The notes under the pieces were generated by a model, which saw only the letters and a list, made by a program, of their open reading frames with translations, did not search any database and was not told where the DNA came from. The position numbers and the translations under genes were made by a program. Below, piece after piece: positions 19,559 to 54,533 of a stretch of 64,000 bases of DNA; within the stretch, counting starts at the first letter, position 1, and every line of letters begins with the position of its first letter. Source of the DNA: Planctomyces sp. (GTDB taxonomy: Bacteria > Planctomycetota > Planctomycetia > Planctomycetales > Planctomycetaceae); NCBI GenBank assembly GCA_019636235.1, contig JAHBXW010000001.1:558001-622000 (forward strand). Reading direction: 5' to 3'.

Positions 19559-20746
19559 TCAAGCGCGCGGCAGGTCTCGCCAGGTCCGGTCGAGAAACGG
19601 GCTGACCAGCCGGGCCAGCATCGGCAGCTCTGACTCGATCAGAAACGCGTCGTGGCCGTGCGGACTCGACAGTTCCGTAAACGTCACATGCCGTCCGGCC
19701 TGGACCAGCGACCGGACGATCGCCCGGCTCTGCTCCGTCGGAAACAGCCAGTCGGTCGTGTAGGAGACGACCAGGAACCGCGCCGCCGTCGCCGCCAGCG
19801 AAGCGGGCATGGGTCCGTGGTCGCGCTCCATGTCGAAATAGTCCATCGCCCGCGTCAGCCGCAGGTAGCTGTTGGCGTCGAACCGCTCGACGAACCGCTT
19901 GCCCTGGTAGCTGAGGTAGCTTTCGATCTGGAACTCAGTGTCTTCAGTCAGGCTGTAACACAACTGGTCGCGGTGCTGCAGCCGGCGGCCGAACTTCTGC
20001 TCGATGGCCTGCTCCGAGAGGTAGGTGATGTGCGCGATCATCCGCGCCAGGGCCAATCCGAATCGCGGCGTCTCCGCCTGCCCGTAATAGTTGCCTCCGT
20101 TGAACGACGGATCGGTCAGAATGGCCCGCCGACCGACCGTGTTGAACGCGATGCCTTGGGCCGACAGCCGCGATCCGGACGCCAGCAGGATCGCACTGGC
20201 GACGCGCTCGGGATGCCGCGCGGCCCATTCCAGGACCTGCATGCCGCCGAGGCTGCCGCCCACCGCCGCGAGCAGCCGGTCGATTCCCAGCGAGTCCACC
20301 AGCGTCTGATGCACCCGAACGATGTCCGCCACCGTGATGAATGGAAACTCTGGTCCGTAGGGGCGGCCCGTCGCCGGATTGAGGGAGTTTGGTCCCGTCG
20401 TCCCCTGGCACCCCCCCAGCACGTTCGCACAGATCACAAAAAACCGATCAGTGTCGATGCCCTTCCCCGGCCCGACGAACCCGTCCCACCAGCCGGGCTT
20501 GCGATCGTCGGCGTTGCGACGGCCGGCGACATGAGAATCCCCCGTCAACGCATGGCAGATAAAGACCGCGTTGTCCCTGCGGGAGTTCAGCTCTCCGTAA
20601 GTCTGGAAGTCCACGGTGATCGGCCCCAGCGTCAGGCCGCATTCCAGGGTCAGCGGCTGCTCGGCGGTGAACAGCGTCGCCTGCTGTCGCCGGACGAGCG
20701 CGGGTTCGGAGGGGTCGGCGGCGAGGGGCGAGGCGGTCAATTCCAA
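19559..20746 (-). CDS. metX: Homoserine O-acetyltransferase
   Basis: Protein of 395 residues that transfers acetyl from acetyl-CoA to homoserine for methionine synthesis. Family hallmarks are FICHALTGDSHVAGR, the CANVLGGCQGTTGPNS segment, the nucleophile elbow GGSLGGMQ (Ser165), the acid in YTTDWLFP and the base in SSPHGHDAFL. A succinyl or acetyl preference cannot be proven from sequence. The start is a TTG at 20746 without a clear ribosome site (a second TTG is at 20740); the nearest upstream ATG is out of frame. It is followed by a short gap and a convergent TetR gene. Confidence 0.93.
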   Translation of the reverse strand: MELTASPLAADPSEPALVRRQQATLFTAEQPLTLECGLTLGPITVDFQTYGELNSRRDNAVFICHALTGDSHVAGRRNADDRKPGWWDGFVGPGKGIDTDRFFVICANVLGGCQGTTGPNSLNPATGRPYGPEFPFITVADIVRVHQTLVDSLGIDRLLAAVGGSLGGMQVLEWAARHPERVASAILLASGSRLSAQGIAFNTVGRRAILTDPSFNGGNYYGQAETPRFGLALARMIAHITYLSEQAIEQKFGRRLQHRDQLCYSLTEDTEFQIESYLSYQGKRFVERFDANSYLRLTRAMDYFDMERDHGPMPASLAATAARFLVVSYTTDWLFPTEQSRAIVRSLVQAGRHVTFTELSSPHGHDAFLIESELPMLARLVSPFLDRTWRDLPRA

Positions 20747-20821
20747 CGCAGGGCCATTGCAATCAGTGACACAGAAACGGGAAACCTGAAAGCAGAAGTA
20801 TACGAGGACGCCGCGGCAGCG

Positions 20822-22138
20822 TCAGTGGTTCGCGTCCCCTGCCGGATCTTCGATCCCCAGCAGCCAGAGCGGCGCCGTCAGCCGCCCGAACAGGGAGATC
20901 GCGAACAGCAGCTGAAACCCCGTCCAGACGCCCCAAGGAACGGCCAGCGACCACTCTTCCCGCAGCAGCCGATCCAGCGCCCAGCCGCCGAACAGCCCGG
21001 CGACCGCGGCCAGAAACCCCGTCACCGGACGGAACAGGGCCAACTGCACCGTGTTGTCGCTCCGCGGCGCGAGCCGCAGCGCCAGCGTCTGGCTGCACAG
21101 GTTGACGGCTCCGAACAGCCCCCACACGGCATAGGCGCCGAATTGCAGGAACCATGTTTCGGGCGTCGCAGCGAGGGTGAACAGCAGGGCCGTGCCGACG
21201 GCGAAGCTGCTGACCGTCAGCACGCGAACATCGCCGATCCGGTCCGAAATGCGCCCGGCGACGAGGTTCCAGACAGTCTGCAGAACGAGCATCAGCCCAT
21301 GCATCGCCAGGAACCAATGCAGCGGAATCGTCAGGACTTCAATCTGAAACTTGGTGATGACGGCCTGCGTCAGCCCCTGAAACAGGGCGAGATGGCAGGC
21401 CCAGCCCAGCAGGTTCCGAAACCCCGGGGTTCGCAGTGCGCGGCGCAGCATCGTCCGCAGTGACGCGGCGCCGGCGGCGGTTCGCGTGGGGACCGACGGC
21501 ACGCGGAGCATCGGCAGGACCGACGACAGCACGATCGCGCCGCCGAGCAGGAACGCCCCGACGAAGAACGTCGTCCGATCGCCCGGCGGCAGCGTGCGTC
21601 GCGCCCACTGGCTGGCCAGAATGGCCGACGTGTAGACGATCAGCGACGTCGCCAGCGCGGCCGACTGCCGACTCGCGAAGAACCGACCCCAGCGCCGTTC
21701 GGGCGCGAGGTCGGACAGCCACGAGAGATAGGCGACGTACCCGAGGCCCTGACAGACATGCCAGACCGCCAGACAAGCCAGAATCGCTGGCAGGATCAGG
21801 GACGCCGGCGCGTCCGGCCCCAGCCAGACCGCCAGCAGCGGGATCGCCAGCGCTGCGCTGCGGCCGATCAGCAGCCCCGCCATCCATAATGTCTTGCGGC
21901 TGAAAAGCCGGAGCACGAGGGGTCGGACGAACAACCCGGCCGTCTCGAAGAACTCGGGCGCCGCCTGCAGCGTCGCCAGCCACAGAGCGCTCGGTCCGTA
22001 TCCGCTGACGAAGTAATTGAAGAAGCCGCCGACGGTCAGTGTGTTCCCCGCGGAGAACAGCACCTGGCTGGCGACGACGCGGCGCGTCAGCGCCGGGAGC
22101 GGCGTCGCCCTCGCGGGGTCGCTGGATTCGTTCGACAT
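20822..22138 (-). CDS. Major facilitator superfamily transporter
   Basis: Protein of 438 residues with about 12 hydrophobic helices in two halves. The loop LSWLSDLAPERRWGRFFASR between early helices and the loop VAGRISDRIGDVRVL in the second half match the MFS A-motif position (G-x-x-x-D-R-x-G-x-R). The cytoplasmic N-terminus contains VVASQVLFSAGNTLTVGGFF. It would move a small solute across the inner membrane; the substrate is unknown. It lies between metX and an SDR gene on the same strand, with a 22-base gap to the latter. Confidence 0.85.
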   Translation of the reverse strand: MSNESSDPARATPLPALTRRVVASQVLFSAGNTLTVGGFFNYFVSGYGPSALWLATLQAAPEFFETAGLFVRPLVLRLFSRKTLWMAGLLIGRSAALAIPLLAVWLGPDAPASLILPAILACLAVWHVCQGLGYVAYLSWLSDLAPERRWGRFFASRQSAALATSLIVYTSAILASQWARRTLPPGDRTTFFVGAFLLGGAIVLSSVLPMLRVPSVPTRTAAGAASLRTMLRRALRTPGFRNLLGWACHLALFQGLTQAVITKFQIEVLTIPLHWFLAMHGLMLVLQTVWNLVAGRISDRIGDVRVLTVSSFAVGTALLFTLAATPETWFLQFGAYAVWGLFGAVNLCSQTLALRLAPRSDNTVQLALFRPVTGFLAAVAGLFGGWALDRLLREEWSLAVPWGVWTGFQLLFAISLFGRLTAPLWLLGIEDPAGDANH

Positions 22139-44759: not shown

Positions 44760-46604
44760 ATGAAGCGCACCGTCCCACTGCTGATCACGTCCTGCGTGGG
44801 CGCTTTGCTGATCGCGTCGACGTTCATCCCTGTCGCTCAGTCGTGGAGCGACCGGTTCATGATCTGGTTCGACATCCTCGCGGCGATCGCCTTCGTCCTC
44901 GGCGGAGGCAACCTTGTCGCTTCACAGCTGCGGAAGGTGAGCGACCGCCGCCCCGGCTGGGGCTATGCGCTCATCACGCTGATTTCGTTCCTGCTGATGC
45001 TGTCCTTCGGACTGCTGAAGCTGGGCGTGAAGCCCGCGCCGAACCAGGAGTACTTCGGCGAATCGTTCGCGCGGCTGCCGGTCGAGGCGCTCCCCGAGTT
45101 TCCCATGGCCGCCGACGTGCCAGCTTCCCTCCGCAGTCAACAGTTGCCCGCATCCGTCCGGAAGCAGGTCCGCTGGACGGAAGACGGCCTCGTGGTGAAC
45201 GGATGGCTGACCCCCGAACAGTCGGCGGATCTGGTGGGCCTGAATCCGGTTCTCGAATGGCAGTGCGCGATCGAGCGGCTGGCTGCCCAGGCGCAGCCGC
45301 CCGTGCCGCTGCAGGGCCGCCTGTTCTATCATCCGGACCACCGGGTGCTCGCCTTCCGGGGCTGGATGAGCGAGGCCGATGAAATCGAGCTCCGGGGCCT
45401 GGCCGACGGCCACTCGGCGTTCGAATCGGCTGCGACGCAGCTGGCCATCGCGGCGCGCCGCAAGACGACGGTCTCCGCCGCCCCGGCGCCCGAGGGCTTT
45501 CAGTTGCCCCCGTCGCTTTCCCAGAGCGTGACGATCGAAAACGGGCAGGCCTCAATTCTCGGGCCGATGTCCGCAGCCCAGCGAAACGCCCTCGCCACGG
45601 GTTCGCTGAACGCTCGCCGCGAACTCCCCGGGGACGCCACGCGGGACTCGATTCTCGCGGCGCTCACGGACGCTGGCCCGCTGACCGCCGAACAGCGCGC
45701 CGTCGTCGAGAAGCGTTTTCTGGACAACCCCGCCGACGCCCTGATCGCCGCAATCAACACCGCGGGCGTCTCGGCGCCGACAAGGAAGACGGCCTGCGAG
45801 CTGATGGCGGAGCGCAACGCCGGCGTCACCGACCTGGTCTCAGAAATTGCCGCGGGGCCCCCCAGCCTGTTGAACGCGGAGCAGGAAAATCTAATCCGCG
45901 AACGGCTGGGCGCTGCCCCCGTCGATTGGGACGCGCTGCCGACGGCGATTGAGGCGGCCGGTTCACTGACGCCTGCGCAGACTTCGTCAATCGCCGCGTT
46001 CCGCTCATCCCTGCCGACCACCGGCGCGCTGCGCCGCACTTTATTCGAGGATCTGCTGAGATCAGCGGCTGCTGACGCCAGCGCCGGGCGCCCGGCCCCG
46101 ACATTGAACGCCCAGCAGCGGACGCTGCTTCTGGCTCCGTATCTCGAGGAACACCGCTGGCGGCAAAGCGTCCGGGAACTGTTCCGCGCGGCGCACGTCG
46201 TGAAGTACCCGTGGTCGGGGGAGTTCAACCAACAGGGCGCGGCGTTCTGGTGGTGCTACGAATACATCTTCCAGCCGATCACAGCGATGATGTTCGCGCT
46301 GTTGGCGTTCTACGTGGCGTCGGCGGCGTTCCGCGCGTTCCGGGCGAAGAACGTCGAGGCGACACTGCTGCTGGGAACGGCCTTCATCATTCTGCTGGGC
46401 CGCACCTACGCGGGGGTGCTGCTGACCGACTGGCTGCCGAAGACGTCGCCGTTCCGGATGGAGAACCTGGCGGTCTACCTGATGAACGTGTTCAACTCGG
46501 CGGGGAACCGCGCAATCATGATCGGCATCGCGCTGGGCATCGCGTCGACGTCGCTGAAGATTCTGCTGGGCATTGATCGTTCGCATGTGGGAGGCAAGGA
46601 ATGA
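44760..46604 (+). CDS. Multi-pass membrane protein with internal repeats, function unknown
   Basis: Protein of 614 residues, family not recognised. Three N-terminal helices (about 5-27, 35-55, 69-90) and about three C-terminal ones (505-525, 533-555, 570-600) flank a 400-residue soluble part. In it, a strand-strand-helix unit ending G-W/P-L/M-T/S repeats near 137-161, 188-214 and 257-281. A short helix-start motif of the type L-T/N-A/P-E/A-Q recurs at 150, 270, 308, 371, 403 and 449 (LTPEQ, MSAAQ, LTAEQ, LNAEQ, LTPAQ, LNAQQ). No catalytic motif is visible. It is the first of three consecutive membrane genes. Confidence 0.82.
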   Translation: MKRTVPLLITSCVGALLIASTFIPVAQSWSDRFMIWFDILAAIAFVLGGGNLVASQLRKVSDRRPGWGYALITLISFLLMLSFGLLKLGVKPAPNQEYFGESFARLPVEALPEFPMAADVPASLRSQQLPASVRKQVRWTEDGLVVNGWLTPEQSADLVGLNPVLEWQCAIERLAAQAQPPVPLQGRLFYHPDHRVLAFRGWMSEADEIELRGLADGHSAFESAATQLAIAARRKTTVSAAPAPEGFQLPPSLSQSVTIENGQASILGPMSAAQRNALATGSLNARRELPGDATRDSILAALTDAGPLTAEQRAVVEKRFLDNPADALIAAINTAGVSAPTRKTACELMAERNAGVTDLVSEIAAGPPSLLNAEQENLIRERLGAAPVDWDALPTAIEAAGSLTPAQTSSIAAFRSSLPTTGALRRTLFEDLLRSAAADASAGRPAPTLNAQQRTLLLAPYLEEHRWRQSVRELFRAAHVVKYPWSGEFNQQGAAFWWCYEYIFQPITAMMFALLAFYVASAAFRAFRAKNVEATLLLGTAFIILLGRTYAGVLLTDWLPKTSPFRMENLAVYLMNVFNSAGNRAIMIGIALGIASTSLKILLGIDRSHVGGKE

Positions 46605-46692
46605 CGGAGCGACCGCTCATTCCCCCGCCCCCCCGAGATCACGGCCCCCGCCCCGCCCCTGTCCGCCGACATGGAATCCGTTGAGCGCCGGC

Positions 46693-47562
46693 ATGTACGA
46701 CTTTTTCAGCAACCTCGATCGGCGCTGGATCTTTCTGGCGATGGGCTTGGCCGTCGCCATCCCTGTCCTGTTTCAGCTCCAGTTCCCCGAGTCGTCCTCC
46801 GCGCTGTCCGAGGCGTGCTTCACCGCCATTGAGGAACTGCCTCCGGGCTCGCGGGTGCTGCTGGCGTTCGATTTCGACCCGGCCAGCAAAGGGGAACTCG
46901 AGCCGATGGCGACATCGTTCGTCCGGCATTGCTGCGAGAAGAAGCACAAGCTGTACTTCATGACGCTCTGGCCGGTCGGCGTCCAGATGATCGACAACGC
47001 GATCGATCGCGTGATCCGGGCCGACTTCCCCGAAATGGTGTACGGCGAGGATTACGTGAACCTGGGCTACAAGCCGGGGTACGAGGGGGTCATCAAGGTC
47101 GTCGTCTCGGACCTGAAGAAGCTGTATTCCACTGATTCCCGCGGGACGAACATCGACCAGATTCCGATGTGCCGAAACCTGAAGAACATTCTGTCGATGC
47201 GGCTGATCGTCAATGTGAGCGCCGGATTCCCGGGCGCGAAGGAATGGATCCAGTACGCCGCCACTCCCTACAAGGAGCTGTCGATCGTCGCCGGCTGCAC
47301 CGGTGTTCAGGCGGCCCTGCTGTACCCCTACGTTCCCGACCAGTTGCCCGGCCTGCTCGGCGCCATCAAGGGGGCCGCTGAATATGAGCAACTGGTGAAC
47401 GCGGCCTACACGCCGGCGGACGCGACGCCGGTCGCCAAATACCTGGAAGCCAAACGCAGAATGGGTCCGCAGTTTGTCGCCCACCTGCTGATGATTTTTC
47501 TGATCATTCTGGGCAACACGGTGTACTTCCTGCAGCGGGCTCAGGCACGGAGGCGGGGCTGA
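46693..47562 (+). CDS. Membrane-anchored protein with alpha/beta soluble domain, function unknown
   Basis: Protein of 289 residues. One helix near residues 13-29 and one at 262-280 anchor a roughly 230-residue domain that begins VLLAFDFDPASKGELEPMA and continues with alternating strands and helices (LYFMTLWPVGVQMID, VIKVVVSDLKKLY, LIVNVSAGFPGAKEW, LSIVAGCTGVQ). The pattern suggests a Rossmann-like fold, but no nucleotide-binding loop is evident. The ATG at 46693 was chosen, with a TTG at 46681 possible. Its stop codon overlaps the next start by one base, so the two are coupled. Confidence 0.82.
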   Translation: MYDFFSNLDRRWIFLAMGLAVAIPVLFQLQFPESSSALSEACFTAIEELPPGSRVLLAFDFDPASKGELEPMATSFVRHCCEKKHKLYFMTLWPVGVQMIDNAIDRVIRADFPEMVYGEDYVNLGYKPGYEGVIKVVVSDLKKLYSTDSRGTNIDQIPMCRNLKNILSMRLIVNVSAGFPGAKEWIQYAATPYKELSIVAGCTGVQAALLYPYVPDQLPGLLGAIKGAAEYEQLVNAAYTPADATPVAKYLEAKRRMGPQFVAHLLMIFLIILGNTVYFLQRAQARRRG

Positions 47563-48443
47563 TGGATCGCCGGAAACTGTGGGCGGCCGCCTGGCTGGCG
47601 TTCGCGATCTATCTGTTGTACCGGGCGACGCTCGGGGCCGGCTCGACGTACGTCATGGAGTCGGACAACGGCAACTGGGTCTACGCCGATCCGGTGGAAT
47701 ACGTGGCGGGGGGCGCGGTCTTCAGCCCGATTCGCACGCTGGGCGTGTGGATCGCGGCGCTGCTGACGCTGTGCGTCCTGTCCTACATGTACCGCGACAA
47801 CCCGTACTACCGGTTCGCCGAAGCGGTGATCGTCGGCGTCTCCGCGGCATACGCCATGGTCGTGGCCTTCTGGTCGGCCCTCATTCCGAATCTGTTCGGC
47901 GAACTGTGGCCGGCGTTCATCCAGTCCTGGGCGATTCCCGGCCTGTCAGCCGAACACCGGGAGAACTGGTGGTTGTCCTTCATTCCGCTGGTGCTGGGCG
48001 CGATGCTGTTGTGGCGCCTGGCGCCGCGGGGCTCGTGGATCGCGCGGTGGCCGCTGGCGTTCATCGTGGGGACGACGGCCGGCGTGCGTCTGATCGGTTA
48101 CATCGACGCCGATTTCGTCAGCCAGATCCGCGCGACGATGCTGCCGCTGATCGTCCGGACGGCCGAAGCCGGGACCATCGACTGGGGCCAGTCCCTGCAG
48201 AACACGCTGATCGTGTTCGGGGTGCTGAGCGCGTTGGTCTACTTCCTGTTTTCCGTCGAGCACAAGGGGCTTGCCGGCCGCGTCGCGCGGGTGGGGACGT
48301 GGGTGCTGATGATCGCCTTCGGGGCGGCGTTCGGATACACGGTCATGGGACGGATCGCGCTCCTGGCGATCCGCTTCGAGTTCCTGTTCGACGACTGGCT
48401 GTGGCTGATCGACCCGCTGGAGCGTCGGGACGGGATTCTGTAG
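47562..48443 (+). CDS. Polytopic membrane protein, function unknown
   Basis: Protein of 293 residues with about eight hydrophobic helices (among them LWAAAWLAFAIYLLYRATLG, VLGVL-type helices and RVARVGTWVLMIAFGAAFGY). Loop features are NGNWVYADPVEY after helix one and GLSAEHRENWW. It matches no transporter or enzyme family I recognise. It begins on the last base of the previous gene (TGATGG), so it almost certainly works with the anchored and repeat proteins before it as one membrane complex. Confidence 0.82.
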   Translation: MDRRKLWAAAWLAFAIYLLYRATLGAGSTYVMESDNGNWVYADPVEYVAGGAVFSPIRTLGVWIAALLTLCVLSYMYRDNPYYRFAEAVIVGVSAAYAMVVAFWSALIPNLFGELWPAFIQSWAIPGLSAEHRENWWLSFIPLVLGAMLLWRLAPRGSWIARWPLAFIVGTTAGVRLIGYIDADFVSQIRATMLPLIVRTAEAGTIDWGQSLQNTLIVFGVLSALVYFLFSVEHKGLAGRVARVGTWVLMIAFGAAFGYTVMGRIALLAIRFEFLFDDWLWLIDPLERRDGIL

Positions 48444-48546
48444 GTCTTCGTCGCTCGCGAAGCGTCGGTCGATAGTGTACCTTTGGATAGTCGCTGCGGA
48501 AGGCGCCGCGCGGACTGTCCCTTCTCGCACGGACCGAATCGACCAC

Positions 48547-51276
48547 ATGCCGATCCGTCGCAACTTCCTCTGCTGGACGCAACCGGCGCTCCCCGCCGTC
48601 GTCCGCGATCTGCAGGCGTCCCGTGGCCAGTCCGGATTCCTCGACCTCTCGGACCTCGTCGTCGTCACTCCCTCCTCGGGCGCGGGACGGCGGTTCCTGG
48701 AACTCCTTGCTGAAGCCACCGATGGCCGCTGCGTCCCGCCCCGCACGATCACGCCCAAAGACCTGCCCGAGCTTCTGTACGTTCCCAAACGACCCTTCGC
48801 GTCCGAACTCACTCAGGAACTCGCCTGGGTCGATGCGCTCCGCAGTTCCCCCGCCGAACGCATCCGCCAGGTGACCGGCAACCCGCCGGCCGACGCCGAC
48901 ATCCGCGGCTGGATGACCGTCGGCCGGACGCTCTCCCGTTTGCACCGCGAACTCGCCGGCGACGCGTTCGATTTCTCCAAGGTCGCCTGCTGTCCGCTGC
49001 TCAGCGACCTTGCCGAGCGGGACCGCTGGCAGGCGCTCAGCGAGGTTCAGGCCGCCTACCTGAGGCGGCTGGACGATCTCGGCCTGTGGGACCTGCAGAC
49101 CGCTAGGCTGGTGGCTGTCGAACATCGGGAATGCGCATCGTTGATGTCGATCGCGCTTGTCGGAACCGTCGACATGAACCGCACTCTGCGGCAGATGCTC
49201 GAGCAGGTGACCGGCGATATCACGGCTTACATCCATGCGCCCCGTGAAATGTCGGACCGGTTCGACGAGTTCGGGATTCTCCGGGCCGATCTCTGGCTGG
49301 AGGCGCCGATCGATTTGCCCGATGACCGGCTGCGGCTGGCGGACGGGCCGGACGACCAGGCGGCGGAAGTCGTCCGGGCGCTTGCGGCGCTGCCGGAGCG
49401 ACGGCGGGCGGACGAGATCGTCATCGGCCTGGTCGACGAGGAACTCGCGCCAGCCGTCCGGGAGGCGCTCGCGGCCGAAGGCATCGCCTCCCGCTGGATC
49501 GGCGGGCGGACGGTGCAGCAGACGTCCCCCTGGTCGCTGCTGGACGCCATCGCCGACTGGCTGGATGACGATCGCGCCGTATCGACCTGCAGCCTCGTGC
49601 GTCATCCGGACGTGTCGCGCTGGCTGGATTCGCGGGGACTGTCGTCGGACTGGCTGTCCAGGCTGGACGCGTTCGTGGCCGGCCGGGCGCCGCGTCGGCT
49701 GACGGCATCGGACGCGAATCCGGAAGTGGCCGGCCTGTCGGCCGAGGTCCAGGCGTGGCTGCAACCGCTGCGCGGCGATGCGCGGCCGCTGGGAGAATGG
49801 GCGACTCCCATCGCCCGGATACTGAGCGTGATCTACGGGCGCCAGACATTCGACATGGAGCAGCAGGCCGATCGCCATGTCGCCGAGGCGCTCCAGTCGC
49901 TGACTTCGGCGTTCGAGGAGCAGTCCGACATTCCGGAATCGCTCTCGCCGGCGGCATCGGCGGCAGCCGCCATCCGGTTGGCGCTGGAGTCCTGCGCCGG
50001 CGTCCTGCTGCCCCCCGATGTCGTTCCCGAGGCCATAGAACTCAGCGGCTGGCTGGAGCTGCCGCTGGATGATTCGCCGGTGACGATCGTGTGCGGATTC
50101 AACGAAGGCCTGGCGCCGTCGTCGTTGAACGGCGACCTGTTCCTGCCGAACAGCCTCCGCGAGCATCTCGGGCTGACGGACAACGCCCGCCGCTACGCGC
50201 GGGACGCCTACGCGGTCAGCGTTCTGCGGCAGTCCCGGCACACGGTGCTCATCGGCGGTCGCCGGACATCGGGCGGAGAGCCGCTGTTGCCCAGCCGCCT
50301 GGCGTTCGCCTGTGATCCGCAGACCATCGCCCGGCGGATTCGGACGCTGCTGCGCCCGCCCCGTTCGGAGTTCGATGCCGACGGCGCTCGCCGCGCCGCC
50401 GAGAAGCAGCAGTTCCAGGTCCCCCGCCCCACGCGGCTCTGCCCCGAGCCCAGGTTGTCGGTCACCGCGTTTCGCACCTATCTCGCGTGTCCGTACCGCT
50501 TCTACCTGCAGCACGTCGAGCGGCTCGAGGCGATTGAGGACCGGGTCGATGAGCTCGATCCGATGGTTTACGGAACGCTGCTGCACGACGTGCTCAACAA
50601 GTGGGGTCAGGGGCCGCTGGCCGCATCGACGGACGCCGCCGCCATCCATGCCGCGTTGCAGCAGTTGCTGCGGGAATCCGTCGGAGAGGCGCTCGACTTC
50701 GATCAGTCGCCGGCGGTGCGGCTGCAGATCGAGCAGGCCGCGCGGAGGCTGGAAGCCTTCGCGAACTGGCAGTCCCGATGGGCCAGCGAGGGCTGGCGGA
50801 TCGAGACGGTCGAGGCCAGCATCCGGCACGAGTTTCCGCTGTCGGACGGCCGCCGCCTGACGATCAGCGGCCGCATTGACCGCATCGACCATCGCCCGGC
50901 GACCGGAGAGCGTGTGATTTTCGACTACAAGACGGGCGAATCCGGCAAGAAACCGGAAGCCGCGCACTTCAGCGGCGGCCGCTGGTGGGACCTGCAGCTC
51001 CCCCTGTACCGGCTGATGGCGGAGTCGCTGGGCCTTCCGAAACTGGGTGTGCAACTGGGATACATTGTGCTGCCGAAGACGTCGACGGATGTCGGCGAGT
51101 TGATCGCCAATTGGTCGACGGAACAACTGGCGGACGCGGAATGCGAAATCCGCCGAGTCGCGGAGGCGATCTTCGTCGAGGGGGTGTTCTGGCCTCCGAC
51201 CAGCGAGCCTCCCGCATTCGACGACTGCGCCCCCATCTGCATGGAAGGCGTGTTTGGCCGCGAGACAGGAGTCTGA
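48547..51276 (+). CDS. AddB/RexB-like nuclease-helicase subunit with PD-(D/E)XK nuclease
   Basis: Protein of 909 residues. The N-terminal part is a helicase-like scaffold (WTQPALPAVVRDLQASRGQS at the start, DLVVVTPSSGAGRRF). The C-terminal nuclease contains FRTYLACPYRFYLQHVERL, YGTLLHDVL, GRIDRID and FDYKTG, the PD-(D/E)XK signature. In AddB the nuclease is held by an iron-sulfur cluster from four Cys; here only CPYRF and a C-terminal DDCAPIC pair are seen. It is followed two bases later by the AddA-like gene, the usual addB-addA order, for double-strand break processing. An earlier GTG start is less likely. Confidence 0.88.
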   Translation: MPIRRNFLCWTQPALPAVVRDLQASRGQSGFLDLSDLVVVTPSSGAGRRFLELLAEATDGRCVPPRTITPKDLPELLYVPKRPFASELTQELAWVDALRSSPAERIRQVTGNPPADADIRGWMTVGRTLSRLHRELAGDAFDFSKVACCPLLSDLAERDRWQALSEVQAAYLRRLDDLGLWDLQTARLVAVEHRECASLMSIALVGTVDMNRTLRQMLEQVTGDITAYIHAPREMSDRFDEFGILRADLWLEAPIDLPDDRLRLADGPDDQAAEVVRALAALPERRRADEIVIGLVDEELAPAVREALAAEGIASRWIGGRTVQQTSPWSLLDAIADWLDDDRAVSTCSLVRHPDVSRWLDSRGLSSDWLSRLDAFVAGRAPRRLTASDANPEVAGLSAEVQAWLQPLRGDARPLGEWATPIARILSVIYGRQTFDMEQQADRHVAEALQSLTSAFEEQSDIPESLSPAASAAAAIRLALESCAGVLLPPDVVPEAIELSGWLELPLDDSPVTIVCGFNEGLAPSSLNGDLFLPNSLREHLGLTDNARRYARDAYAVSVLRQSRHTVLIGGRRTSGGEPLLPSRLAFACDPQTIARRIRTLLRPPRSEFDADGARRAAEKQQFQVPRPTRLCPEPRLSVTAFRTYLACPYRFYLQHVERLEAIEDRVDELDPMVYGTLLHDVLNKWGQGPLAASTDAAAIHAALQQLLRESVGEALDFDQSPAVRLQIEQAARRLEAFANWQSRWASEGWRIETVEASIRHEFPLSDGRRLTISGRIDRIDHRPATGERVIFDYKTGESGKKPEAAHFSGGRWWDLQLPLYRLMAESLGLPKLGVQLGYIVLPKTSTDVGELIANWSTEQLADAECEIRRVAEAIFVEGVFWPPTSEPPAFDDCAPICMEGVFGRETGV

Positions 51277-51278
51277 CG

Positions 51279-54200
51279 ATGGCCGCGCCCCGCCCCCCTG
51301 CCGCTGATCCCGCCGCCAGCTCCGCCGCCGGATCGAGCTCCGACTGCGGATCAGACGGTGAAACCGCCTCCATCCGGATTGGCGACGGCCAGGTGCTGAT
51401 TCGCGCCTCGGCCGGTTCGGGCAAGACATTTCAGCTCTCAAACCGCTATCTCGCGCTGTTGCGGCGCTGCCCGCCGGAACGCATCCTGGCCGTCACGTTC
51501 ACCCGGAAGGCGGCCGCCGAGATCCTCGACCGCGTGCTGAACCGTCTGGCCGCGGCGGCTCTCGACGCGGAGGAACGTCGCAGGCTCGGATCGTTCATCG
51601 GCGACATCTCCGAGGAAGAGTGCCTGCAGTTGCTGGCCGGGCTGACCCGTCAACTGCATCGCGTCCGGATCGGCACGCTGGATGGCTTTTTTTCGCGGCT
51701 GGCGTCCAGCCTGTCGCTGGAGATCGGACTGCCGCCGGACTGGCGGATCGTCGATGAGCACGCGGACCGCGATCTGCAGCGGCGGGCGATCGACGCCGTC
51801 CTGCACGAACGCAACGGCCAGTTCGTCGGCCCGCTGGTGAATCTGCTCGCCAAAGGGGACTCGCCGCGCTCGATCGGCCGACTGATCGAGGATGCGGTCG
51901 CGAATTTTTATGACGTCTCGCGTCTCGTCCCCGCCGCAGCCTGGTCCCGCATTCCGCAGGGGGGAGTGGTCTCGGGCGAAGAGTTGCAGGCTCTCATCGC
52001 CCAGGTCGCGGCGCTTCGCCTGCCTCCCGGCGGCCAGCTCGCGAAGGCCCGCAACAAGGATCTGGCCCTCATCGAAGTCGGCGACTGGCTGTCGTTTATG
52101 GGCAGCGGCCCCGCGGCCAAACTGCTGGCCGGCGAGACGAAGTACTATCGCGCCGAGCTGCCGGAAGAACTCGTCGCCGCCTATCGGGCGCTCCTCGCGC
52201 ATGCCCGCGGCATCCTGCTCAAGGCCTGGTCGGAACAGAACGACGCGACGCGGCAGCTGCTGGACCGCTATCACGAGGCCCGCCGCCGACTGCTGCTGGA
52301 GACGGGCAGCATCCGCTTCAACGACGTCGCGTCCGCGCTGGCGGAACGCGTCTCCGCGATCGACGGCCCGACGCTGGTCCACCGGCTCGACATGGACCTG
52401 GACCACATGCTGATCGACGAGTTTCAGGACACGTCGCTGAACCAGTGGCGGGTGCTGCGGCCGTTTGTCGAGGACGTCGTCCAGCGTCCGCGGGGTACAT
52501 TTTTTTGCGTGGGGGACGTCAAGCAGGCGATTTACGGCTGGCGGGGAGGCGTGGCCGCGCTGTTCGACAAGGTCGCCCGCGAGACGCCCGGCATCCAGGA
52601 ACAGCAGTTGAATGCCAGTCGCCGTTCGTCGCCGCCGGTCATAGAGGCCGTCAATGAGGTGTTCCTCAATCTGTCGCGACACCTGGAACTCGGCGAGATC
52701 GGGACGCACGTCGACGACTGGAGACGGGCCTTTCCCAGGCATGCCACCGTCAACAACCACCTGTCCGGCTATGTTCGGCTGGAGTCCAGCGACTTGCTTG
52801 AGGGGAACGCGGACGAGCATCGGCTGGCGTGCAGCGCGCGGGCGGCGGACCTGGTCGCGGAGCTGATGCAGACGCACCCGCGGGCGACGATCGGCGTGCT
52901 GGCCCAGCGGAATGCCGTCGTGGCCCGGACGATGTACGACCTCGGACAGCGCGGCATTCTGGCCAGCGAAGAGGGGGGCGTGCCGATGACGAACTCCGCC
53001 GCCGTGCAACTCGTGCAATCGGTCCTGCGGTTCGCAGACCACCCGGCGCATTCGATTGCGCGGTTTCATGCAGCGCATTCGCCGCTCGGTCCGCTGCTGG
53101 GCATCGAGGCGCAGATGTCGGACAAGTCCGCGCATGCCGCGGCGCTGGCCATCCGCGAGGAACTCGCCCGCACCGGCTACGAGGCGGCCGTGGCGCGGTG
53201 GGCGGCGGCGCTGAGGCCGCTGTGCAATTCCCGGGAGTGGAGCCGGCTGCGTCGTCTTCGCGGGCTGGCCGCGGCCTGGCAGCCCGAAGCGACGCTCCGC
53301 TGCAGCGACTTCGCCGACCGGATCGACAATGAGAAGGTCGAGGAGCCGTCCGAAAGCCGCGTCCGCGTCATGACGATTCACAAGGCCAAGGGGCTGGAGT
53401 TCGACATCGTCATCCTACCGGACCTCGACACCAAACTCTGCGATGTCCCCGCTTACGCCGCCTGCGGCCCCGGTCCCGCGGAACTGCCCGACACGATCCT
53501 CGTCTATCGAAATCAGGCGCTCACGGCCCTGTTGCCGCCGGAGCTGCAGCGCGCCGTCGAAGAGCAGCAGCGGACCGGTGTCCAGGAATCGCTGTGCTGC
53601 CTGTATGTCGCCATGACGCGGGCGGCGCATGCGCTTTACATGATTGTCCGGCCGCAGCCGGCCAGGGACGGCAAGATCGGCAAGCTGCCAGCCACCGCGG
53701 CGGGCCTGCTGCGAGCGACGCTCGCCGACCGGCCCGATGCGCCCCCCTCCGCCCGGCTGTACGAATGCGGCGATCCCGAGTGGCGTCAGCCGCTGACGGT
53801 CGATGGGCTCGGTTCCGAAGACGAAGCGGCTCGTCCGGTCAAACCGGCTCGGCCGCTCCTTCTGCCCCTCGAAGGCGGACGACGGCGACGACGCGAGGCC
53901 GTCGCGCCATCCGCGTCAATACGCAGCCTGAAGGTCTCCGGCGACCGGCTGCTGTCCCTGTCCGCCAGCGAATTCACCGAGCGCGGCAGCCTGTGGCATG
54001 CCTGGTGCCAGGAGATCGGCTGGCTGGACGATGGCTTGCCGCCGCGCGATCGGCTGCTGGAGATCGCCGCCCGCGTCCGCATCGGCGGGGGACCGTTCGA
54101 GGAGGATCTGGACGCGTTCTTGACGGCCATCGGTCGGCCCGCGATCCGGGCCGTCCTGTTGCAGTCCCGTTACCGTCCCGAACAGGCGGGAAAACTGCCC

Positions 54201-54533
54201 GCCGCGCTGGGGGCCGTGTGCCGGCAGGAAGACTTGCGGCTCGCCTGTCACACCGAACGGCGGTTCACGCTGATCGATGGCGACCGGCATCTTTCCGGGA
54301 TGATCGATCGGCTGGTCGTTCTTTCCCGGGGAGAGACGCCCGTGGCCGTGGAAGTGCTGGACTTCAAGACCGATGCCGGCGGAGACGCCAGCGGCCGCAG
54401 CGCGGCCTACGAGGAGCAATTGCGGTTGTATGCCCGCGCGGCGGCCCGCAGCCTGGGTCTCGATCCCGGCGTCTCGGGCGCGACGCTGGTGTGGCTGGCG
54501 ACCGGAACGGTCCGCAATGTGCCGGTCAGGTAG
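51279..54533 (+). CDS. AddA-like UvrD-family helicase-nuclease
   Basis: Protein of 1084 residues. It has helicase motif I ASAGSGKTFQLSNRYL, motif Ia TFTRKAAAE, motif II LIDEFQDTS, motif III-like GDVKQAIYGWRGG, and motif V VMTIHKAKGLEFD followed by YVAMTRA. The C-terminal nuclease has GMIDRLVV, EVLDFKTD and YEEQLRLYARA. It unwinds DNA 3'-5' and cuts one strand, with AddB cutting the other, to prepare breaks for RecA. The ATG at 51279 follows the AddB stop by two bases; longer frames only overlap AddB. It is slightly shorter than the typical AddA of about 1200 residues. Confidence 0.92.
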   Translation: MAAPRPPAADPAASSAAGSSSDCGSDGETASIRIGDGQVLIRASAGSGKTFQLSNRYLALLRRCPPERILAVTFTRKAAAEILDRVLNRLAAAALDAEERRRLGSFIGDISEEECLQLLAGLTRQLHRVRIGTLDGFFSRLASSLSLEIGLPPDWRIVDEHADRDLQRRAIDAVLHERNGQFVGPLVNLLAKGDSPRSIGRLIEDAVANFYDVSRLVPAAAWSRIPQGGVVSGEELQALIAQVAALRLPPGGQLAKARNKDLALIEVGDWLSFMGSGPAAKLLAGETKYYRAELPEELVAAYRALLAHARGILLKAWSEQNDATRQLLDRYHEARRRLLLETGSIRFNDVASALAERVSAIDGPTLVHRLDMDLDHMLIDEFQDTSLNQWRVLRPFVEDVVQRPRGTFFCVGDVKQAIYGWRGGVAALFDKVARETPGIQEQQLNASRRSSPPVIEAVNEVFLNLSRHLELGEIGTHVDDWRRAFPRHATVNNHLSGYVRLESSDLLEGNADEHRLACSARAADLVAELMQTHPRATIGVLAQRNAVVARTMYDLGQRGILASEEGGVPMTNSAAVQLVQSVLRFADHPAHSIARFHAAHSPLGPLLGIEAQMSDKSAHAAALAIREELARTGYEAAVARWAAALRPLCNSREWSRLRRLRGLAAAWQPEATLRCSDFADRIDNEKVEEPSESRVRVMTIHKAKGLEFDIVILPDLDTKLCDVPAYAACGPGPAELPDTILVYRNQALTALLPPELQRAVEEQQRTGVQESLCCLYVAMTRAAHALYMIVRPQPARDGKIGKLPATAAGLLRATLADRPDAPPSARLYECGDPEWRQPLTVDGLGSEDEAARPVKPARPLLLPLEGGRRRRREAVAPSASIRSLKVSGDRLLSLSASEFTERGSLWHAWCQEIGWLDDGLPPRDRLLEIAARVRIGGGPFEEDLDAFLTAIGRPAIRAVLLQSRYRPEQAGKLPAALGAVCRQEDLRLACHTERRFTLIDGDRHLSGMIDRLVVLSRGETPVAVEVLDFKTDAGGDASGRSAAYEEQLRLYARAAARSLGLDPGVSGATLVWLATGTVRNVPVR

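Follow-up and report, generated by a model that had tools for sequence, protein, structure and literature searches.

The three consecutive membrane genes A, B and C of the analyzed DNA belong to a larger conserved unit. DUF6754 is an obligate fourth membrane subunit of this unit, and MutL, RNFC and U200 are its probable cytoplasmic partners. Conserved gene order together with joint presence and loss strongly supports a single inner-membrane complex of A, B, C and DUF6754, in which physical association of the subunits is inferred. The best overall explanation, which we offer tentatively, is that the complex, operated by MutL, transports a ligand through the membrane.

The A-B-C locus and its proteins

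The window, i.e. the whole stretch of 64,000 nucleotides analyzed here, contains the following features.

44760..46604, + strand: gene A, membrane protein with 6 TM segments, 614 aa (ORF, TM prediction)
45024..46274, + strand: insert of A, residues 89-505 (alignment, topology, repeat test)
46693..47562, + strand: gene B, TM helix, Rossmannoid alpha/beta domain, TM helix, 289 aa (AlphaFold2 model)
46801..47412, + strand: alpha/beta domain of B, model residues 37-240 (AlphaFold2 model)
47562..48443, + strand: gene C, polytopic, 7-8 predicted TM segments, 293 aa (ORF, TM prediction, C-terminal motif)

An ORF check of the window sequence found all three genes between 44760 and 48443. The sequence-only reading had described three consecutive membrane genes, and A (44760-46604) and C (47562-48443) were recovered where it had placed them. 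The frame of gene B is open from 46573; the likely start, judged from the conserved LDRRW beginning, is the ATG at 46693, which leaves a gap of 88 nt between A and B. The overlap of one base that had been noted for the last two genes was evident as TGATG, formed by the stop codon TGA of B and the start codon ATG of C. The three proteins had also been said to match no recognized transporter, secretion or division family. In agreement with this, Pfam and NCBIfam searches gave no hit above cut-off for any of them, family members run singly against Pfam gave no consistent match, and profile searches against PDB sequences yielded nothing significant.

In the window, A-B-C is flanked by genes for an FHA-GAF-SpoIIE phosphatase, for PgpA (pgpA; Pfam PgpA) and for an AddB-like nuclease. 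Among the 24 relatives with B, pgpA adjoined A-B-C in one, a member of the same genus, and addB in none. The AddB-like nuclease lies directly downstream of C at a distance of only 31 nt and is followed by an ORF resembling its AddA helicase partner (48475-54533); this adjacency is not kept in relatives. Scans of the locus for Rfam families, promoters and terminators revealed nothing notable. Elsewhere in the window, at 20001-22000, the AT skew reached 0.22, strong and local and unlike the remaining window.

Protein A has six predicted TM segments. Its homologues in relatives usually comprise about 210-240 aa as opposed to 614 aa in the window, and alignment identified residues 89-505 (417 aa) as an insert in the loop between TM3 and TM4. 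The insert was found in close relatives of the window (versions of about 610 aa) and was missing from most other homologues; a different insert occupies the same site in Binatota, Bdellovibrionota and some Planctomycetota types. According to the positive-inside rule, the large loop of A would be extracytoplasmic. Internal similarity of the 417-aa loop scored 51 compared with a 95% point of 48 for shuffled sequences, and 5 of 200 shuffles reached 51. The repeats are therefore marginal and the insert weakly repetitive, so that the description of A as repeat-bearing was weakened. The proposal that this part forms the head of the complex in general was not sustained, as the insert, predicted to lie outside, is restricted to close relatives of the window.

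Two matches of A to subunits of Mrp-type cation/proton antiporters (E 0.16 and E 0.45), both below threshold, brought up the idea that the system is related to these antiporters. Profile-profile alignment of A and C with MrpF resulted in a probability of 0.2%, however, and we consider this kinship highly improbable. Assignment of A as an Mrp-type subunit F was rejected on the basis of the hhalign value. Nor was homology detectable between the profiles of A and C themselves (hhalign, 0.4%).

Protein B was modeled with AlphaFold2 from an alignment of 61 sequences (pLDDT 94.0, pTM 0.89). The model consists of a TM helix, a Rossmannoid domain and a second TM helix. Thus, the "anchored alpha/beta protein" of the sequence-only reading indeed has a well-folded alpha/beta domain, but this is held between two TM helices. 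DRR is conserved before TM1 and RR after TM2, and the charge pattern, read by the positive-inside rule, would place the domain outside the cytoplasm. In a fold search with the model, the best VIA Z was 9.4 to 1kjn (rmsd 3.5 over 139 residues, ~10% identity). Many unrelated Rossmann folds were tied near Z 8, indicating matches to a generic Rossmann fold only; no transporter or enzyme family stood out in VIA-align, and B was assigned to none. B shares its alternating alpha/beta order with Rossmann-fold domains such as those of short-chain dehydrogenases, TrkA/RCK, the CODH/ACS epsilon subunit and MT0777. It differs from them in lacking the glycine-rich nucleotide loop, in its predicted location outside and in its position between two TM helices. 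Strand 1 is followed by FDFDPASKGELEPM, and no GxxxGxG, i.e. no glycine-rich dinucleotide-binding loop, is present.

The outer domain of B carries lineage-specific inserts, near residue 110 in L230, L231 and L234 and near residue 230 in L232 and L233. In a Latescibacterota genome (L180, 11451-13075), B alone is tandem-duplicated between A and C. No homologues of B were found in viral contigs or plasmids. The B tree groups mostly by phylum, with 17 label changes compared with a minimum of 14 and a mean of 34 after shuffling, which suggests mostly vertical descent.

Protein C has 7-8 predicted TM segments and a conserved C-terminal motif, GASFGYTVMxRxxLLxxR. In the closed genome G014, B and C are joined in one uninterrupted ORF of 596 aa (L043, 9813-11600). 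No comparable fusion was seen in the other long frames checked.

DUF6754, MutL and the smaller partners

Partner genes were found by clustering the neighbors of A-B-C in relatives, followed by Pfam analysis, and profiles were built for all components. In the genome from which the window derives, MutL, RNFC and DUF6754 are encoded together on contig C45 (about 154.6-158.9 kb) and U200 on contig C18, with A-B-C in the window.

The DUF6754 protein on C45 (403.9 bits; cut-off 27) and its counterparts in relatives are full members of Pfam family PF20539, a family that has a name without a function. The AlphaFold2 model of DUF6754 from locus L188 (61-sequence alignment, pLDDT 93.8) consists of an FN3 domain, a TM helix, an alpha/beta domain and a second TM helix. 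In many lineages FN3 is missing, and the matched DUF6754 stretch there measures ~245 aa; the core of DUF6754 is thus TM-alpha/beta-TM. On the evidence of the models, B and DUF6754 appear to share a TM-Rossmannoid-TM plan. Homology between the two was not detectable with hhalign (1.2%). The list of matches in the DUF6754 fold search was filled by FN3, leaving the inner domain unrepresented. Positive-inside charges predict that the alpha/beta domain of DUF6754 lies inside and FN3 outside.

The optional outer FN3 domain fits the idea of a trans-envelope sensor or scaffold. According to this alternative, B, FN3 and the inserts of A and B would bind a periplasmic partner and signal to the inner domain of DUF6754 and to MutL. 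It would also account for the recurrent, lineage-specific inserts in the predicted outer loop of A and in B, which are reminiscent of heads that bind ligands or partners. Yet the conserved set has no output domain such as a kinase, a cyclase or a transcription factor, and two large polytopic proteins would be unusual in a sensor. On balance, we regard a sensor or scaffold as unlikely.

The MutL protein on C45 scored 433 bits against PF13941 (cut-off 27). Among the system MutL proteins, the ASKHA motifs were conserved almost without exception (phosphate-1 in 51/52, phosphate-2 in 52/52, adenosine in 52/52). MutL/GlmL (PF13941) is an accessory protein of B12-dependent glutamate mutase, and the ASKHA core with its three nucleotide motifs is common to GlmL and the system MutL. 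Unlike GlmL, the system proteins are mostly 595-660 aa long compared with 459 positions in the GlmL model, and MutL of the window's own genome reached 229.7 bits, below the NCBIfam GlmL equivalog cut-off of 475. Moreover, their genomes lack glutamate mutase: in 59 relatives, including 26 that encode MutL, no protein scored above the cut-off for glutamate mutase E (PF06368). From this we deduced that MutL serves something else there, and the annotation "MutL, glutamate mutase accessory" misleads on function in these lineages.

GlmL-type proteins are thought to repair or activate B12 enzymes. By analogy, the system could be a membrane-bound, cofactor-dependent enzyme, with MutL as its repair or activation ATPase and RNFC handling cofactor or protein exchange. 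Membership of MutL in PF13941 with all ASKHA motifs agrees with this possibility, as do the polar and acidic motifs of DUF6754 (GRxxExG, AESL, CDYT and GEE), which are very strongly conserved and suit an active site better than a passive scaffold. On the other hand, the membrane subunits show no recognized cofactor-binding motif or enzyme family, and subunits with six and seven TM segments exceed the needs of an enzyme anchor. An enzyme of this type therefore seems to us a doubtful candidate, to be kept in mind next to transport.

RNFC gave a weak Pfam match to the RnfC-type barrel-sandwich and is barrel-sandwich/KOW-like. U200 is a protein of ~100 aa.

Gene order, joint presence and loss

A, B and C usually stand together in the 24 relatives having B. 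Downstream sequence of at least 4.5 kb was available for 89 DUF6754 loci, of which 87 have the order DUF6754-A-B-C on the same strand. Component profiles showed the longer order U200-MutL-RNFC-DUF6754-A-B-C at many distant Planctomycetota loci. When named genomes were searched with DUF6754, at least 557 related stretches emerged, and lineages were drawn from 80 of these. Outside Planctomycetota, the order DUF6754-A-B-C occurs in about 15 lineages of phylum level; most of the named-genome loci are metagenome bins, whose lineage labels can be wrong. The matches listed include Planctomycetota (among them anammox bacteria), Armatimonadota, Nitrospirota, Poribacteria, Zixibacteria, Binatota, Bdellovibrionota, WOR-3/Stahlbacteria, Cloacimonadota, Fermentibacteria/Aegiribacteria, Eisenbacteria, Latescibacteria and others. 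No archaeal DUF6754 locus was seen among the 80 matches listed of at least 557. Gene order, for which Planctomycetes and archaea had been proposed as the comparison, is thus conserved well beyond Planctomycetes, in about 15 lineages, but with no archaeal case among the matches listed.

MutL, RNFC and U200 are frequent but not universal neighbors of DUF6754-A-B-C. In other lineages in which MutL does not adjoin the quartet, it was encoded elsewhere in 22 of 24 genomes. The quartet is present in two or three tandem copies at seven loci (L093, L100, L106, L107, L162, L185 and L189). Other neighbors of the system loci are mostly varying housekeeping genes.

Joint presence was equally pronounced. 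Within 59 relatives, B and DUF6754 occur in the same 25 genomes, and MutL and U200 in those 25 plus G013. Of 392 Planctomycetota genomes, 110 have DUF6754 and 111 have B. B is present in 110/110 genomes with DUF6754 and in 1/282 without; this lone genome, G124, is 72% complete. MutL exceeded the cut-off in 103/110 genomes with DUF6754 and in 12/282 without it. The corresponding Fisher P values for association with DUF6754 (B, about 1e-98; MutL, about 1e-71) are overstated because related genomes are not independent. G013 (93% complete, 780 contigs) harbors MutL and U200 on contigs C67 and C636 and neither DUF6754 nor B, a partial set that could stem from assembly gaps or from real partial loss.

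The closed, single-contig genome G005 has each component once, at six separate sites: U200 at ~119 kb, DUF6754 with RNFC at ~294 kb, MutL at ~793 kb, C at ~2303 kb, A at ~3479 kb and B at ~3527 kb. Conversely, A, B, C, DUF6754 and MutL are all absent from G019, G008, G029 and G347, the first three of which also lack U200. Retention of the scattered components in G005 and their joint loss elsewhere speak most strongly for a common function of the parts, whatever their linkage.

One might still assume that a conserved operon encodes membrane proteins that act independently and form no complex, since what was tested was co-localization and co-occurrence. Independent proteins would hardly be expected to be kept when scattered, to be duplicated as a unit, to be fused as B and C are, or to retain their order across phyla, and we judge this alternative improbable. 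The proposal of a membrane complex of undescribed function was instead strongly supported by the order at 87/89 loci, the phyletic coupling and the B-C fusion. The gene order, too, proved conserved, with A-B-C recurring in about 15 other lineages, and the searches showed no strong similarity of the three to a well-studied machine. As to the extent of the unit, A, B and C are coupled as proposed, but more than these three genes belong to it: DUF6754 joins them as fourth membrane subunit, and the probable cytoplasmic partners MutL, RNFC and U200 are encoded elsewhere in this genome.

A possible mode of action

In the tentatively preferred explanation, a complex operated by MutL, proteins A and C would make up the transmembrane body. 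B would hold its Rossmann-like domain outside the cytoplasm with one anchoring helix on each side, and DUF6754 would present a similarly built domain inside, with FN3 outside in many lineages. The MutL/GlmL-type ASKHA ATPase, assisted by RNFC and U200, would bind the inner face of the complex from the cytoplasm, and its use of ATP would switch or drive the complex. That MutL acts on the membrane complex is inferred. Most likely, a small ligand or an ion would pass through the membrane between one Rossmannoid domain and the other. Transport is a guess, ranked first because two polytopic proteins, linked to an ATPase, are situated between domains of ligand-binding type on either face. A and C matched no transporter family. 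Carried further, the idea would imply a four-subunit transport complex that bears Rossmannoid domains on either side of the membrane and is powered by a MutL-family ASKHA (actin/Hsp70-like) ATPase instead of one of the ABC or P type. This would be an undescribed class of ATP-driven membrane machine widespread in diverse bacterial phyla, a proposition that we put forward as speculative and more likely wrong than right.

The system matched no recognized kind of system, although A and C may yet prove to share a known transporter fold. No literature on DUF6754, on MutL in Planctomycetes or on the A-B-C partners was found in a search that covered few subscription journals. None of 14 well-known control genomes contained DUF6754, and this may explain why the system has escaped notice so far. 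The order kept across deep lineages and the loss as a set imply that it must do something substantial, and its hosts include Planctomycetota with anammox bacteria, Nitrospira, Armatimonadota, Poribacteria and many candidate phyla. The seven subunits named here (A, B, C, DUF6754, MutL, RNFC and U200) provide a concrete, testable list.

Directly upstream of U200, a protein of ~160 aa that probably has two TM helices and contains the conserved stretch LSPFxxPSRLDxFRG was observed at L120 (9099-9617), L125 (6262-6732), L151 (5693-6133) and 14 other loci. Its hosts are Armatimonadota, Fermentibacteria, Latescibacteria and some Planctomycetota. It gave one weak match to bPH_6 and is possibly an eighth component.
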